DNA of 64,000 bases from Algoriphagus vanfongensis DSM 17529 (GTDB taxonomy: Bacteria; Bacteroidota; Bacteroidia; Cytophagales; Cyclobacteriaceae), in the NCBI RefSeq assembly GCF_000429465.1, contig NZ_AUBX01000016.1, positions 1 through 64,000 of the forward strand. Direction: 5' to 3'. How positions within the stretch are numbered: position 1 is the stretch's first letter; each line of letters opens with the position of its first letter. The translations under genes were made by a program, and so were the position numbers. Positions 19,318 to 35,200 of the stretch are shown in pieces. Below the pieces are notes generated by a model, which ran no database searches, was not told where the DNA came from, and was given only the letters and a program-made list of their open reading frames with translations.

Positions 19318-20104
19318 GATCCTTTCCTTAATTGTATTCCTTTTTCTAGTAAGCAGTCAGCTGCTTGCGCAGGATTTTCCGCCAGCACCCAATCCACCCC
19401 GATTGGTCAATGACTTTACACAGTCTCTAAGCAGTGATGAAGTAGCTAGGCTGGAGCAAAAATTGGTAGCCTACAATGATAGCACATCTACGCAAATCGC
19501 TGTGGTGCTGATCCGCTCCATCGGTCAATATGATATCTCTGACTATGCTTTTCGCCTAGGAGATCTTTGGGGTATCGGAGGCGGAGAGAATGACAACGGA
19601 ATACTGATCCTAGCAGCGATGGAAGACCGGAAGGTATTTATCGCGACAGGCTATGGGATGGAAGGGGCAGTTCCGGATGCTCTGGCAAATCGGATCGTGG
19701 ACAATTTGATCGTGCCCAGCTTCAAAATGGAAGCCTACTATCAAGGTCTGGATCAGGCGACTGATATGATCATCAAGCTGGCTTCTGGCGAATACAAGGC
19801 AGAAGATATCGAGTCCAAAGGAAACAGCGGAGGAGCTATCTTTATTTTCCTTTTGTTTATCTTCTTGTTTGTCATCTTGCCTTTGTTGAAAAACCGAAAC
19901 GACAATGACAACCACATGGGAGGACGTGGTGGAGGTGTTGACCTTTTGACCACCATTATGCTGGCCAATTTGCTGGGAGGCGGTGGCCGAGGCAAGTTTG
20001 GCGACTTTTCCAGTGGAGGAGGATCCTTCGGAGGTGGCGGCGGAGGTTTCGGCGGCTTTGGAGGCGGTAGCTTCGGAGGCGGTGGAGCCGGAGGAAGTTG
20101 GTAA
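19295..20104 (+). CDS. YgcG-like TPM-domain membrane protein with Gly-rich tail
   Basis: 269 residues from ATG 19295 (an ATG at 19283 is equally possible). It has a signal peptide ending at LLAQ, a TPM domain with the typical LVNDFTQSLSSDEVARLEQKL opening helix followed by STQIAVVLI, IGGGENDNGILIL and a VFIATGYGMEGAVPDA loop, then a transmembrane segment (FIFLLFIFLFVILPLL), then a very Gly-rich C-terminus that ends GGSW. The tail is the usual feature of YgcG-type proteins. It closes the lemA operon and is followed by a terminator. The role is unknown; a membrane complex with LemA is inferred from conserved gene order. Confidence 0.92.
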   Translation: MKFHSDHKILSLIVFLFLVSSQLLAQDFPPAPNPPRLVNDFTQSLSSDEVARLEQKLVAYNDSTSTQIAVVLIRSIGQYDISDYAFRLGDLWGIGGGENDNGILILAAMEDRKVFIATGYGMEGAVPDALANRIVDNLIVPSFKMEAYYQGLDQATDMIIKLASGEYKAEDIESKGNSGGAIFIFLLFIFLFVILPLLKNRNDNDNHMGGRGGGVDLLTTIMLANLLGGGGRGKFGDFSSGGGSFGGGGGGFGGFGGGSFGGGGAGGSW

Positions 20105-20148
20105 AAGTTAAATTCTGAAAGCTTAAGTATAAAAGCTGAAAATAGTGA

Positions 20149-20181
20149 AAGCCTGAATTCCGTAAGATTTCAGGTTTTTTT
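20149..20181 (+). terminator. Terminator of the lemA-TPM operon
   Basis: Arms AAGCCTGAA and TTCAGGTTT (one G-U pair) with an 11-base loop, running into a T-rich tail. It lies 45 bases after the last stop codon of the operon. Confidence 0.7.
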
Positions 20182-20306
20182 ATGCTTAACTTTTGAGTCT
20201 GACTATACAATGCCCGATGGAAGTCAACTCAAAAATGAAAAAATACTTATTTAACTAAGTATAAATACTTAAAAATATCTAATTTAGAATTTCAATAAAT
20301 CTTGAT

Positions 20307-21479
20307 ATGATTTCTGTTTTCGAAGCCCTTTCCATCATCGATCAGCACAGCGAACCACTGGGTTCAGTTCTGGTGCCTTTGCGGGAAAGTGTCGGAATGG
20401 TCCTCGCAGAAGACATTGAAGCGCCGATTTCCTTGCCTCCTTTTCGTCAGTCGGCAATGGATGGCTATGCTTTTCGTCATGGATTCGGGGAAAGCCTACA
20501 TGTGATCGGAGAAAGTAAAGCAGGAGATAATGTAGATTTTCCTCTCAAAGAAACAGACGCTATCCGAATTTTCACCGGGTCCAGAGTACCTGACCAGGCG
20601 GATACGGTGATCATGCAGGAACATGTCGAGAGACAGGGAGATCAAATTAAATTAGTGAAAATACCCAATCCAGGCACGAATGTCCGACCAATCGGGGAGC
20701 AGATCAAGCAGGGAGACATGGTGCTACAGAAAGGTACCCTGATCAATGCCGCAGTGATTGGCTTTTTGGCTGGGCTTGGATTGGCAGAGGTTTTAGTCAT
20801 TCGTAAACCCAAAATTGCCATTCTAGTTACCGGGAATGAGCTTCAGGAGCCCGGAACGCTTCTGAAGCCCGGTGCTGTGTATGAAAGCAACCGAAGTATG
20901 TTACAGGCTGCTTTGGGAAGTGAAAACGTAGCGTTGGTATTTGATGCCCATGTCAGAGATGACCGAGAATCTACCTTTGAGGCGATTAGAGAAGGGCTTC
21001 AATCAGATGTGTTGCTGATATCCGGCGGGATTTCCGTTGGGGATTACGACTTTGTCAAAGAATCCTTAGAAAAAAACGGCGTAGAAGAGAAGTTTTACAA
21101 AGTCAACCAGAAACCCGGAAAGCCACTTTGGTTTGGGAAAAAAGGGGAAACATTGGTCTTTGCTCTGCCGGGAAATCCGGCTTCTTCCTTGACCTGTTTT
21201 CTGATTTATGCTTTGGCAGCCATTCGTAAAATGAACGGCACTTCTCAAATAGAGATCGGTCTCAAAAAAGGAAAACTCAAGGGAGACTACAGCAATGTCT
21301 TTGAGAAATCCCTATTCCTTCAGTGCAAAGAATCAGGTGGTGTACTCGAAATTTATCCAAAGCAAGCCTCCAGCATGTTAGTGTCATTTACTATGAGCAA
21401 TGCCTTCCTATTTGTGCCCAATGATGTGAAGGAGATACGAGATGGAGACGAGGTAATGTATATTCCTTTCAGTTTATAG
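20307..21479 (+). CDS. moeA: Molybdopterin molybdotransferase MoeA
   Basis: 390 residues. MoeA inserts molybdate into adenylylated molybdopterin. Seen are the N-terminal SMDGYAF-type motif (QSAMDGYAF), the IFTGSRVPDQADTVIMQE loop, the MoCF-binding domain with ILVTGNEL, LISGGISVGDYDFVKE and the LPGNPASSLTCF loop, and a short C-terminal domain. The length is normal. It opens a same-strand block of eight Moco genes with gaps of 2 to 95 bases or short overlaps. The 5' region (20182-20306) is A/T rich with no clear promoter match. Confidence 0.96.
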   Translation: MISVFEALSIIDQHSEPLGSVLVPLRESVGMVLAEDIEAPISLPPFRQSAMDGYAFRHGFGESLHVIGESKAGDNVDFPLKETDAIRIFTGSRVPDQADTVIMQEHVERQGDQIKLVKIPNPGTNVRPIGEQIKQGDMVLQKGTLINAAVIGFLAGLGLAEVLVIRKPKIAILVTGNELQEPGTLLKPGAVYESNRSMLQAALGSENVALVFDAHVRDDRESTFEAIREGLQSDVLLISGGISVGDYDFVKESLEKNGVEEKFYKVNQKPGKPLWFGKKGETLVFALPGNPASSLTCFLIYALAAIRKMNGTSQIEIGLKKGKLKGDYSNVFEKSLFLQCKESGGVLEIYPKQASSMLVSFTMSNAFLFVPNDVKEIRDGDEVMYIPFSL

Positions 21480-21481
21480 AA

Positions 21482-22066
21482 ATGAGACTCAAGTCCGAAA
21501 TAGCGGCCTATATCCTCTGTGGAGGGAAAAGTTCCAGAATGGGACAGGAGAAAGGATTGGTTGCATGGAAAGGAAAAAGCTTTCTGACTTGGATTTTGGA
21601 AGCGATTGCACCGGTAACCGGGGAGATCTTTTTGGTCACCCAAAATGAAAAATATCAAAGCTTTCAGCTGCCGATGGTAGCGGATAGTTATGAGAATAAG
21701 GGACCGGTTTCCGGAATTTATTCAGCCTTGCATCATTCCAAAAGCGAATGGAATCTGATTTTAAGTTGTGATATTCCAGCTATTCAAAGCAGTTTTCTAC
21801 TGGATCTGATAGCAGCTGCAAAAGAAAATGAAAGTCCCATTGTGCTTTATTCAGATGGGATTCATGATTATCCCTTGATAGCGATTTACCATAAAAGTCT
21901 GGAAACAGAATTTGAAAAAGCAGTTCTAAAAAATCGCTTGAAATTGTGCGATGTAGTGAATTCCTTTTTCCCAAAAAAACTGAGGATTGACCCCGAAAAT
22001 CAAAACTATCTCGCCAATGTCAATTCATTAAAAGAATTGGAAAAACTGACCTTACAAACCTATTAG
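21482..22066 (+). CDS. mobA: Molybdenum cofactor guanylyltransferase MobA
   Basis: 194 residues. The nucleotidyltransferase signature CGGKSSRMGQEKGLVAWKG is the GTP-binding loop, SCDIPAI holds the metal-binding Asp, and GPVSGIYSAL follows the family pattern. MobA joins GMP to Mo-molybdopterin to make the MGD form of the cofactor. Its presence implies that the organism makes a DMSO-reductase-family enzyme, such as an assimilatory nitrate reductase or formate dehydrogenase, none of which lies in the window. It starts 2 bases after moeA. Confidence 0.93.
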   Translation: MRLKSEIAAYILCGGKSSRMGQEKGLVAWKGKSFLTWILEAIAPVTGEIFLVTQNEKYQSFQLPMVADSYENKGPVSGIYSALHHSKSEWNLILSCDIPAIQSSFLLDLIAAAKENESPIVLYSDGIHDYPLIAIYHKSLETEFEKAVLKNRLKLCDVVNSFFPKKLRIDPENQNYLANVNSLKELEKLTLQTY

Positions 22067-22068
22067 CC

Positions 22069-22881
22069 ATGAAAACATTAAAAACAAAAAGCCCAAAGGT
22101 GACTTTGGTGGGGGCAGGTCCGGGAGATCCCGAATTGCTCACTCTGAAAGCTGTCAAAGCCATCCGAAGCGCAGATGTGATCTTGTATGATGCTTTGTCC
22201 AACGATACGATTTTGGACTACGCCCCACTTGCCGAGAAAATCTTTGTGGGCAAGCGAAAAGGAACGCATTATCTTTCTCAAGAGCAGATCAATGAGTTGA
22301 TAGTATCTAAAGCATTCAAATCTGGCCATGTGGTACGTTTGAAAGGAGGAGATCCTTTTGTTTTTGGAAGAGGAAAAGAAGAACAGCAGTATATCGAAAG
22401 CTTCGGAATCGAAACAGAAGTAATTCCCGGAATCTCATCTAGCATTGCCGTTCCGGCTTCCATCGGTATCCCGGTCACTTCCAGAGGAGTTTCAGAGAGT
22501 TTTTGGGTGATCACGGGGACGACTTCAGCAGGCGAACTTTCCAATGATATTGCTTTGGCGGCTCAAAGCACTGCCACGGTAGTGATTTTGATGGGATTGG
22601 GGAAGATAGCTGAGATTACCAAAATTTACCGTGATCTGGGAAGAGAAGAATTGGCGATAGCAGTGATTCAGAATGGTACTTTGGAAACGCAGCAGGAAAT
22701 CGTGGGAACTATAAGCAATATCGAGGAATTGATAAGAAAGAATGGAATTGGCGCTCCTGCCATCCTAGTGATAGGAGATGTAGTTCACTTGGCTTCCAAA
22801 AAAATCAGGGAAGGTTTGGACTTCAATTTGGAGGATGAGTTTATTTTCCAAAATCTCAATACTATTCCTTTCGTAAATTGA
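22069..22881 (+). CDS. cobA: Uroporphyrinogen-III C-methyltransferase (SUMT)
   Basis: 270 residues. SAM-dependent methylation of uroporphyrinogen III to precorrin-2, the branch point to siroheme. Motifs: VGAGPGDPELLTLKAVKAI at the N-terminus, DVILYDALS, VVRLKGGDPFVFGRG, and the EVIPGISSSIAVPASIGIPVTSRG segment, all standard for SUMT. No CysG-like dehydrogenase/chelatase domain is present. Its place between mobA and moaD is the interesting point: siroheme and Moco are used together in assimilatory nitrate/nitrite reduction, so co-regulation with such a pathway is likely. Confidence 0.95.
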   Translation: MKTLKTKSPKVTLVGAGPGDPELLTLKAVKAIRSADVILYDALSNDTILDYAPLAEKIFVGKRKGTHYLSQEQINELIVSKAFKSGHVVRLKGGDPFVFGRGKEEQQYIESFGIETEVIPGISSSIAVPASIGIPVTSRGVSESFWVITGTTSAGELSNDIALAAQSTATVVILMGLGKIAEITKIYRDLGREELAIAVIQNGTLETQQEIVGTISNIEELIRKNGIGAPAILVIGDVVHLASKKIREGLDFNLEDEFIFQNLNTIPFVN

Positions 22882-22897
22882 GTAAAAATCAGAAATC

Positions 22898-23134
22898 ATG
22901 ATTCAGGTTAAATATTTTGGAATGATTGCCGAAGCTACCTCCAAAGAGGCAGAGGAAGTAGCTTTGACCGAAAAGCCATTTTCAGAAATCTTGAGTGAAA
23001 TTTCATCCAAATACAAGCTTGGGGACCTCTCCTATCAGATAGCTGTGAATAAAAAACTGGTTAGCAATCCTGCTGACCTACAATTGAAAGAAGGTGATGA
23101 GATTGCCTTTTTGCCACCTTTTTCCGGAGGATAA
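22898..23134 (+). CDS. moaD: Molybdopterin synthase small subunit MoaD
   Basis: 78 residues, a ubiquitin-like beta-grasp sulfur carrier. It ends in LPPFSGG; the C-terminal Gly-Gly is the residue pair that is adenylylated by MoeB and then thiocarboxylated. The stop codon is followed directly by the ATG of the MoeB-like gene, so the carrier and its activating enzyme are translated together. Confidence 0.95.
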   Translation: MIQVKYFGMIAEATSKEAEEVALTEKPFSEILSEISSKYKLGDLSYQIAVNKKLVSNPADLQLKEGDEIAFLPPFSGG

Positions 23135-30974: not shown

Positions 30975-32027
30975 ATGAAAAGTCTACTGTTAATTTTCCT
31001 CCTTGTGTTTGTAGAGGTCATGCCAGGTACGGTTCTCACAGAAAAAGACATAAAGGTCACCAGCTACAACAAGAAAAATCAGCATTCCAAAGCTCCGAAG
31101 AAAGTTTTTGTAAAGAGTTTCAAAGCACTTTTTGAGGTTTATGAAGAAGCCTCTGCTTCAGTTTCCGGATCTAAAAAAGAAAGAGCCGATAGAACCACTT
31201 TCACCTCTGGTACTTCTACAAGTTTAGGAGTTCAAATTTCAGGCGTCGATGTAGATGATTTCCAAAAAATGATCAATGATGCTTATGCTGATTTTGTAAG
31301 CCAGCTGACCAGTCAGGGTTTTGAGATTATTACAGCGGGAGATGTACAAAAATTTGAGTATTTCTCTGATTGGACATTGGTAAATGGAGGAGCCTCATCC
31401 GATGCACAGGCACAGGGATTTGTAATGGTCACCCCGGAGGGCTTTGATTACTTGGTGAAAAAGGTCTCTAACAGTGGGAAAGAGAAGTTCGGATTTAACT
31501 TGACAGACCCTACTCCAAAAATGTCCAAAGCTATAGAGAATGTCTATGTTGCCGATGTCAATTTTGTGTTTCCTTTCGTCAATTTGGATGCGGACGCTTC
31601 CCAATGGACCAAAACCACTTCTGTAAAAGCTAAAATTGACTATAGAATTGATCCAATTGTAGATCCTAGTGAGAACAATAGATCCATTGGTGGTGGAGGA
31701 GCTAATTTGCTTTCTCAGGTAAGATTTGTTTCTGGATTGGATATCGGAAGTAATCCTTTGTTCCATGCTAAAGTTGAGCCAAAAAAGGCAGTTTCTTTTG
31801 AAGGCGTTTTTGCAGACAAAAAAATCAAAGAAGTGACACAAGCTCAGTCTGAAATGTTTTCCAAAACCGGCTATACGCAATTGGTAATGACATCAGGGGA
31901 TCAGAAAAAAGTAGCTTCCCACTTTGCTGAATGTGATCATGATGCCTATGTCAATGCCGCTTCAGGATCTATGAAGGATTTGATTGATACCGGGATTAAG
32001 AATTTCGTAGAGATGACAAGTAAATAA
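30975..32027 (+). CDS. Exported protein of unknown function
   Basis: 350 residues. A signal-peptide-like N-terminus (MKSLLLIFLLVFVEVMPGTVL) is followed by a soluble region with no motif I recognise. A helix DVDDFQKMINDAYADFVSQL precedes GFEIITAGDVQKF; mixed alpha/beta content follows with FVFPFVNLDADASQW and KAKIDYRIDPIV. There is one Cys late (ECDHD). It could be periplasmic or surface-exposed. It stands alone between two terminators, so neighbours do not help. CCAATTTTGG just upstream contains a one-mismatch -7 element. Confidence 0.75.
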   Translation: MKSLLLIFLLVFVEVMPGTVLTEKDIKVTSYNKKNQHSKAPKKVFVKSFKALFEVYEEASASVSGSKKERADRTTFTSGTSTSLGVQISGVDVDDFQKMINDAYADFVSQLTSQGFEIITAGDVQKFEYFSDWTLVNGGASSDAQAQGFVMVTPEGFDYLVKKVSNSGKEKFGFNLTDPTPKMSKAIENVYVADVNFVFPFVNLDADASQWTKTTSVKAKIDYRIDPIVDPSENNRSIGGGGANLLSQVRFVSGLDIGSNPLFHAKVEPKKAVSFEGVFADKKIKEVTQAQSEMFSKTGYTQLVMTSGDQKKVASHFAECDHDAYVNAASGSMKDLIDTGIKNFVEMTSK

Positions 32028-32261: not shown

Positions 32262-35200
32262 GTGAAAACGTATCAGGAATTTAAGCAGGTGGACTATCCT
32301 CACATCGGGGAGTCTATTCTTCAGTATTGGAAAGAAAATCAGATTTTCGAAAAGTCAATTGCAAACCGTGATGGTGCAGAGACCTTTACCTTTTTCGAGG
32401 GCCCTCCTTCGGCAAATGGTACTCCGGGTATCCACCACGTGATGGCTCGTACTCTGAAGGATATTTTTTGTCGATATAAGACTCTTAAAGGTTTCCAAGT
32501 GAAGCGAAAAGGAGGCTGGGATACTCATGGTCTTCCCGTTGAGCTTCAAGTGGAAAAAGAACTGGGAATCACCAAAGAGGATATCGGTACCAAAATCACC
32601 GTAGAAGAATACAACAAGAAGTGCCGCGAAACCGTCATGCGCTTCAAAAACGAATGGGATGACCTGACCGAGAAAATCGGTTATTGGGTGGATTTGGACG
32701 ATCCTTACATCACCTTCGATAGCAAGTACATTGAAACCTTGTGGAATTTGCTGCAGAAGCTGTACGACAAGGACCTCCTTTATAAAGGCTACACGATCCA
32801 ACCGTATTCTCCAGCTGCAGGTACTGGTTTGTCTTCTCACGAACTGAACCAACCAGGCACTTACAAGGATGTGAAGGATACTTCCATCACTGCTCAGTTC
32901 AAACTGAAAGGAGAAGACAACACTTACATCTTAGCCTGGACGACAACTCCTTGGACTTTGCCATCTAACTCCGCTTTGGCGATAGGTGAAAACTTGGACT
33001 ATGTGAAAGTGAAAACTTTCAATCCATATACTCATGAGCCTGAATTCGTGATTTTGGCAAAAGCCAGAATGGCTGCCTATCTGAATCCAAAGGCGAAAGA
33101 CCACAAGGTGGAAGATTACAAGGCGGGAGATAAGCTGATCCCTTACGAGGTGATTTCCGAATTCAAAGGGAAGGATATGCTTGGCTGGGAATACGAGCAA
33201 TTGTTTCCGATTGATGCTTTAGCACTTCCTAATCCTGCTTTTACTGTCGTTTCTGGAGATTATGTGACTACAGAAGATGGTACTGGTATCGTTCACTTAG
33301 CGAAGGCTTTTGGTGCGGATGACTTTAGAACTTTGGTTCAAAACAACGTGCCAGGTGTATTTGTCAAAGATGATTTGGGTAATGATATTCCTGTTGTCGA
33401 TAAGCAAGGTAGATTCTTACCTGTAGTCGGTGAGTATTTGGCTGCAAAAATGAAAGAACATGGAATCACAGCTCATAAAGAATATGGTGCTTCTGATTTC
33501 TATGTGAAAAATTATACCGAGGATGATGAGAATGCTCCGGATTACAAAAACACGGATGTGATCATTTCTATCATCTTGAAAAATGAAAATAAAGCCTTCA
33601 AAGTAGAGAAATACGAGCACAGTTATCCACACTGCTGGAGAACTGACAAGCCGGTACTTTACTATCCTTTGGAAAGCTGGTTTATCAAAACCACTGCTTA
33701 CAAAGACAGATTGGTGGAATTGAACAAAACCATCAACTGGAAGCCAGAAGCAACCGGTACTGGTCGTTTCGGAAACTGGTTGGAAAACTTGGTGGACTGG
33801 AACTTGAGCCGTTCAAGATTCTGGGGAACCCCACTTCCTATCTGGAGAACAAGTGATGGAACTGAAGAGAAATGTATCGGTTCGATCGCTGAATTGAACG
33901 CTGAAATCGAAAAATCCATCGCTGCTGGATTTATGGAGAAATCTCCATACGAAGGCAAAGAGTTGGATTTGCATAGACCCTATGTGGATGACGTCGTTTT
34001 GATTTCCGACAAAGGAGAGAAGATGTTCCGTGAGCCAGACTTGATTGACGTTTGGTTTGATTCCGGTGCCATGCCGTACGCACAATGGCATTATCCATTC
34101 GAGAACGAAGATGTATTCAAGGCGAACTATCCTGCTGATTACATCGCTGAAGGGGTAGATCAGACACGTGGTTGGTTCTTTACTCTTCATGCTATCGCAG
34201 GGATGCTTTTTGATAGTGTAGCTTTCAAGAACGTGATCGCGAATGGCCTTGTTTTGGACAAAAACGGCAACAAAATGTCCAAGCGATTAGGCAATGCGGT
34301 GGATCCTTTCAAGACTTTGAAAGAATATGGTCCAGATGCCTTGAGATGGTACATGCTTAGCAATGCAAATCCTTGGGATAATTTGAAATTCAACCTGGAT
34401 GGCGTGACAGAGGTGCAGAGACGCTTCTTTGGCACCCTTCAGAATACTTATAACTTCTTTGCGCTTTATGCAAATCTGGATGCTTTTGTCTATGACAAGT
34501 CTAAGGCAGTTCCAGTGGCGCAAAGAGCAGAATTGGATCAGTGGATCATCTCCAAACTTCAGTCTTTGATCTCTGAGGTGGAGGAAGCCATGGATAATTA
34601 TGATGCGACTCGAGCTACTCGTGCCATCATGAACTTTACCGTGGATCAATTGTCCAATTGGTATGTGAGATTGGCCAGAAAGAGATTCTGGAGAGGTGAT
34701 ATGAACGCTGACAAGCAGGCCGCTTACGAGACTTTATATGAATGCTTGTTGACCCTGACACAATTGATGTCATCTTTTGCTCCATTCTATTCCGATTGGT
34801 TGTACAAAAACTTGACAGAGACCGGTGCTGGAGGAGAAGAGTCCGTTCACTTGACGGATTGGGTTGTTGCTGATCAAGCATTGATCAATAGCGATCTGGA
34901 AGCAAGTATGGATTTGGCACAGACGATTTCTTCTTTGGTTCACTCCTTGAGAAAGAAAGAAAAGTTGAAAGTTCGCCAGCCGCTTCAAAGAATCCTGATT
35001 CCTGTCTTGAGCAAGAAGGTTCAGGCTCAGATTGAGCATGTTGAGGACTTGATCAAGACCGAGGTGAATATCAAAGCCATCGAATATATCGATGATGCTT
35101 CTGGGATTTTGGTAAAAGATGTAAAACCTAATCTTCCTGTTTTGGGTAAAAAACTAGGACCGAAGATGAGATTTGTCGTAGCTGCTATCAAATCTTGGGG

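Follow-up and report, generated by a model that had tools for sequence, protein, structure and literature searches.

A natural G/AxHH-type signature motif in the type 2 isoleucyl-tRNA synthetase of an Algoriphagus-like bacterium and of sampled Bacteroidota

The textbook rule for class I aminoacyl-tRNA synthetases is an HxGH signature, and the isoleucyl-tRNA synthetase (IleRS) gene described here breaks it by carrying Gly at the first position and His at the third. Is this exchange real, can the enzyme that bears it serve the cell, and what would it mean for inhibition by mupirocin? The initial annotation of the window (the whole stretch of 64,000 nucleotides analysed) had read the gene as a functional type 2 enzyme, apparently the only copy in the window, with a possible high tolerance to mupirocin, and this interpretation is supported by the analysis below. 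With a probability of about 95%, we regard the gene as encoding the housekeeping type 2 IleRS (IleRS2) of an Algoriphagus-like bacterium (Bacteroidota), whose class I signature takes the G/AxHH form already described in print. Features of the gene are collected in Table 1.

Table 1. Coordinates of ileS and of its motifs in the window
Feature	Position	Strand	Basis
ileS, type 2 isoleucyl-tRNA synthetase, 1124 aa	32262..35636	+	GTG start assumed, stop included; TIGR00392, PF00133, PF08264, PF19302
Swapped class I signature G56-I57-H58-H59 (HxGH expected)	32427..32438	+	sequence; alignment to 8c8u and 8c8w; 80/80 named loci
GWDTHGLPVE, residues 85-94, intact	32514..32543	+	alignment
TTPWTLPSN, residues 228-236, CP1 editing domain (editing role presumed), intact	32943..32969	+	alignment
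HYPFE, residues 610-614, eukaryote-like (type 2) IleRS signature	34089..34103	+	sequence; signature named in PMC4861432
KMSKR, residues 671-675, KMSKS loop, intact	34272..34286	+	alignment

The identity of the gene and the register of its motif were established first from the window itself. The protein scores 980 bits (E=1e-294) against TIGR00392 (isoleucine--tRNA ligase, ileS), whose curated cut-off is 621.4, and Pfam finds tRNA-synt_1, Anticodon_1 and a C-terminal DUF5915 together with an overlapping tRNA-synt_1g match. Although the list of open reading frames opens the frame earlier, at TTG 32217, we prefer the GTG at 32262, which has AAAGGA directly upstream by eye; the motif is unaffected by this choice. 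The DNA at 32421-32441 reads ACT CCG GGT ATC CAC CAC GTG, that is, T-P-G-I-H-H-V. When the protein was compared with PDB sequences by phmmer, the motif aligned without gaps to NGLPHVGH of chain 8c8u and to NGLPGVHH of chain 8c8w, the latter being the top score (860.2 bits) among 69 matched PDB sequences. The PDB table gives only a molecule name for these two chains, which we take, from the description in the 2023 paper discussed below, to be its P. megaterium IleRS2 structures. The ungapped alignment rules out a misread register and, with the DNA and the residue numbering from the GTG, bears out the GIHH first noticed. In 8c8w, a P. megaterium mutant by the description in PMC10485003, the swap was introduced by design into an enzyme whose own motif is HVGH, whereas in the window enzyme it is natural. 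The claim that the rest of the enzyme is intact also stands, with GWDTHGLPVE, TTPWTLPSN and KMSKR all present in the alignment.

Directly upstream of ileS, on the + strand, lies a 350-aa ORF (30975-32027) whose start looks signal-peptide-like by eye; NCBIfam gave nothing for it at E 0.001, nor did Pfam at a threshold as loose as E 5.

The proposed type 2 (eukaryote-like) character is borne out by sequence identity, by signatures and by the tree. Local identity of the window IleRS is 36.5-41.9% to five IleRS2 from other phyla, versus 26.9% to E. coli IleRS1. By the signatures given in PMC4861432, HYPFE of type 2 is present and Tyr59, NKIL and SSL of type 1 are absent, as is the C-terminal Cys4 zinc cluster (no cysteine in the last 60 residues versus four in E. 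coli IleRS1). The Tyr59 position is occupied by Ser, which differs from the Phe or Thr that PMC4861432 names for type 2. HYPFE is exact in 20 of 23 aligned IleRS2 rows, the exceptions being Paenibacillus, Rhodococcus and Nonomuraea. In a tree of 25 rows, two of them HxGH IleRS2, the IleRS2 rows are split from the single, long-branched E. coli IleRS1 row with support of 100/99, and all 18 Bacteroidota rows form one starred clade (96/98). The 21 rows with the swap fall on one side of one branch, whose support is weak (74/86), so that the number of origins of the swap is not settled by the tree; its root is also unsure, because the E. coli IleRS1 and ValRS branches are long.

A second difference from the IleRS2 of other phyla was observed in the CP1 domain. 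At residues 182-190 and 455-464 (window 32805-32831 and 33624-33653), the window enzyme has SPxAGTG and YPHCWRTD, and so do its ten closest neighbours in the grouping of the rows, whereas all five IleRS2 from other phyla have the cysteine-bearing YCxxC and CWRC, presumably the CP1 zinc site of IleRS2. As judged from these residues, the site appears to have been lost in the window IleRS and in those ten rows. Among the remaining seven rows from the phylum, the CP1 cysteines are kept in some and not in others.

Is this the only IleRS of the organism? The assembly that holds the window comprises 4,708,832 bases in 16 contigs and is 99.96% complete, and exactly one place in it exceeds the ileS cut-off. 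The next best is an 883-aa frame at 216.5 bits, presumed to be ValRS, which has a normal HMGH motif; a second, HIGH-bearing ileS over the cut-off is thus absent from the genome. The gene is therefore the sole and presumably essential IleRS, in line with the initial annotation, which had seen one apparent copy in the window. It adjoins lspA, as in E. coli. The closest named loci (best 80 of 588 confirmed) are those of Algoriphagus marincola, at 90-91% identity, and relatives, and the loci titled Algoriphagus among the matches listed have orthologues 84-91% identical.

These observations bear on whether the gene might be an acquired, dedicated mupirocin-resistance synthetase, either similar to MupA or MupB or kept as a self-protection copy, beside another housekeeping IleRS. 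In favour of this, the window enzyme belongs to type 2 and can be aligned to the NCBIfam profiles for MupA and MupB, at 801 and 815 bits. However, both scores are below half of the 1900-bit cut-offs, and we reject an acquired gene of the MupA/MupB type on these scores; the single ileS in the genome, its place beside lspA and its close orthologues in Algoriphagus also speak against such an origin, which we consider highly improbable. MupA and MupB of staphylococci are, like the window enzyme, relatives within the IleRS family, but the window gene is the sole housekeeping ileS of its genome.

The motif swap and its link to mupirocin are already known. Brkic et al. (2023; PMC10485003) reported G/AxHH in 86 prokaryotic IleRS2 and HxGH in 77, the former falling into two IleRS2 clades and missing from all the IleRS1 that they examined. 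With Gly first and His third in its motif, the window enzyme falls in this G/AxHH subgroup (Gly or Ala, then His). It resembles the G/AxHH IleRS2 of S. griseus and D. radiodurans (PMC10485003) in being of type 2, with positions 1 and 3 exchanged and the rest of the catalytic core conserved, and it differs from them in coming from the Bacteroidota and in being known here from its sequence alone. The association between type 2 IleS, exchange of the motif and strong mupirocin resistance, which the initial annotation had given as background, is published in that paper together with a mutational test in both directions. The D. radiodurans IleRS2 (ALHH) has a mupirocin Ki of 6.6 mM, which is 823-fold lower when the motif is changed to HVGH; conversely, introducing GVHH raised the Ki from 0.20 to 35 µM in the Thermus enzyme and from 1.08 to 460 µM in that of P. 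megaterium, at a cost of up to 10-fold in kinetics (PMC10485003). The authors propose that a shifted helix tip admits the third His, which takes the catalytic role and clashes with mupirocin. A check of the main text of that paper found no word starting with Bacteroid. Among the papers examined for the term GXHH, it was found in PMC10485003 only, and PMC13188873, as far as its text was covered, adds no Bacteroidota data.

If the motif works as published, H58 would catalyse in place of the first motif His. The contrary reading is that the swap harms activity and that the gene, as a paralogue, is decaying or non-canonical. In its favour, catalysis centres on the first His, and several class I enzymes pay a price of about 10^3-fold for its mutation (PMC10485003). 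Against decay, the frame is open with its other motifs intact, the gene is the sole ileS over the cut-off, and G56, H58 and H59 are invariant across 20 aligned Bacteroidota IleRS. Furthermore, D. radiodurans IleRS2, whose ALHH is natural, shows a kcat that falls in the canonical IleRS2 range (PMC10485003). A harmful swap is accordingly very unlikely.

How widespread is the swap? All 80 named loci, which are the nearest relatives (best 80 of 588 confirmed), have GxHH at the same place, as GIHH in 78 and GVHH in two, which argues that the motif is neither chance nor misreading. One of these loci bears the title Thalassobius; that genus lies outside Bacteroidota, and the record probably comes from a misnamed bin. 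Across the phylum, an ileS match at E ≤ 1e-100 was found in 295 of 296 sampled genomes. The motif was read in 100 of the 296, namely the 30 best-scoring loci and 70 chosen for other family labels, and was GxHH in every one (87 GIHH, 11 GVHH, 1 GLHH and 1 GMHH). Together with the window, which has a family label of its own, these genomes represent 50 of the 50 family labels in the sample. HxGH, HxHH and GxGH were not found in any of the 80 named loci or 100 phylum genomes, two sets that may share some genomes. The same arrangement in both sets rules out chance and leaves a sequencing or assembly artefact, for which we saw no point in favour, a negligible probability. In 20 of the 70 label-covering loci, PPTVNG stands in place of PPTANG, and all 20 are GxHH.

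Four sampled genomes showed two ileS stretches when three candidates per genome were scored. When all candidates were scored in 42 genomes, the two stretches proved to be one frame in two of the four (G190 and G255), and nothing that was clearly a second full-length ileS emerged; in G288 they are two contig pieces nearly abutting on the profile, and in G276 two contig pieces overlapping on it, with 3% contamination. One phylum genome (G176; 100% complete, 70 contigs) has no ileS match at E ≤ 1e-60, for which our guess is an assembly gap.

Further IleRS2 regions were seen in records of a plasmid collection. The swap is present in Acetoanaerobium (GIHH), Rhodococcus (GTHH) and Nonomuraea (GVHH), as well as in four Bacteroidales records (GIHH), whereas Paenibacillus and Sutcliffiella have the canonical HIGH and HAGH, and E. 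coli IleRS1 has HIGH. Three records labelled plasmid, from Phocaeicola, Parabacteroides and Bacteroides (L125, L126 and L127), carry ileS, and the two annotated ones among them share the gene order ileS - TraR/DksA - lspA - DUF4296; these records may be pieces of chromosome that were wrongly given a plasmid label. The GTHH-type IleRS2 gene lies on a Rhodococcus opacus plasmid (L204; NZ_CP095404.2, 425721-468816), at 19953-23108 of that locus, inside an apparent nonribosomal-peptide cluster. Condensation-domain, AMP-binding and phosphopantetheine-binding genes lie upstream of it, and LLM oxidoreductase, aminotransferase, TauD/TfdA dioxygenase and AMP-binding genes downstream. This copy may serve self-protection, a hint that the product of the cluster targets IleRS.

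For the window IleRS, mupirocin hyper-resistance is a well-founded inference by analogy, because the published motif has been tested by mutation in both directions and gives Ki values up to the millimolar range. By the same analogy, H58 would clash with mupirocin and raise the Ki far above that of HxGH IleRS2, possibly into that range. The case rests on analogy because no Bacteroidota IleRS kinetics, mupirocin MIC or Ki was found in the literature examined on mupirocin and Bacteroidota: PMC6994654, on ppGpp in P. gingivalis, used mupirocin but does not report susceptibility in the text examined, and PMC10835994 gives ileS as the mupirocin target in an annotation table and nothing more. The effect depends on background, as the modest Ki of the engineered Thermus and P. 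megaterium enzymes indicates, and with published GxHH and AxHH backgrounds spanning 35 µM to 6.6 mM, its size is not predictable here.

The organism is not special in this respect, since all the relatives examined share its motif. The GxHH of the Bacteroidota seems to have been inherited from long ago and not to be a recent resistance mutation. Because every sampled relative shows the swap, resistance may have come along with an ancient change in the catalytic centre, and selection by mupirocin need not be what maintains it. Tentatively, and at somewhat less than even odds, GxHH may be another way of arranging the class I active site that was fixed before the phylum diversified and is kept by internal fit, not by continuing selection from mupirocin, with phylum-wide hyper-resistance as the by-product. 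The odds are lowered by the natural return to HxGH in the Deinococcus-Thermus clade and by the activity of the HVGH mutant of the D. radiodurans enzyme (PMC10485003), which indicate that the swap can be undone in at least some backgrounds.

The surprise of the broken class I rule was published in 2023. What the present survey adds is its extent: besides the window, the swap was seen in each of the 80 named loci and each of the 100 phylum genomes read, and the family labels covered number 50 of the 50 sampled. Provided that the motif behaves here as it does in the published enzymes, target-level insensitivity to mupirocin is to be expected across the phylum, whose many natural sequences could then be used to ask how the enzyme tolerates the swap and what maintains it.
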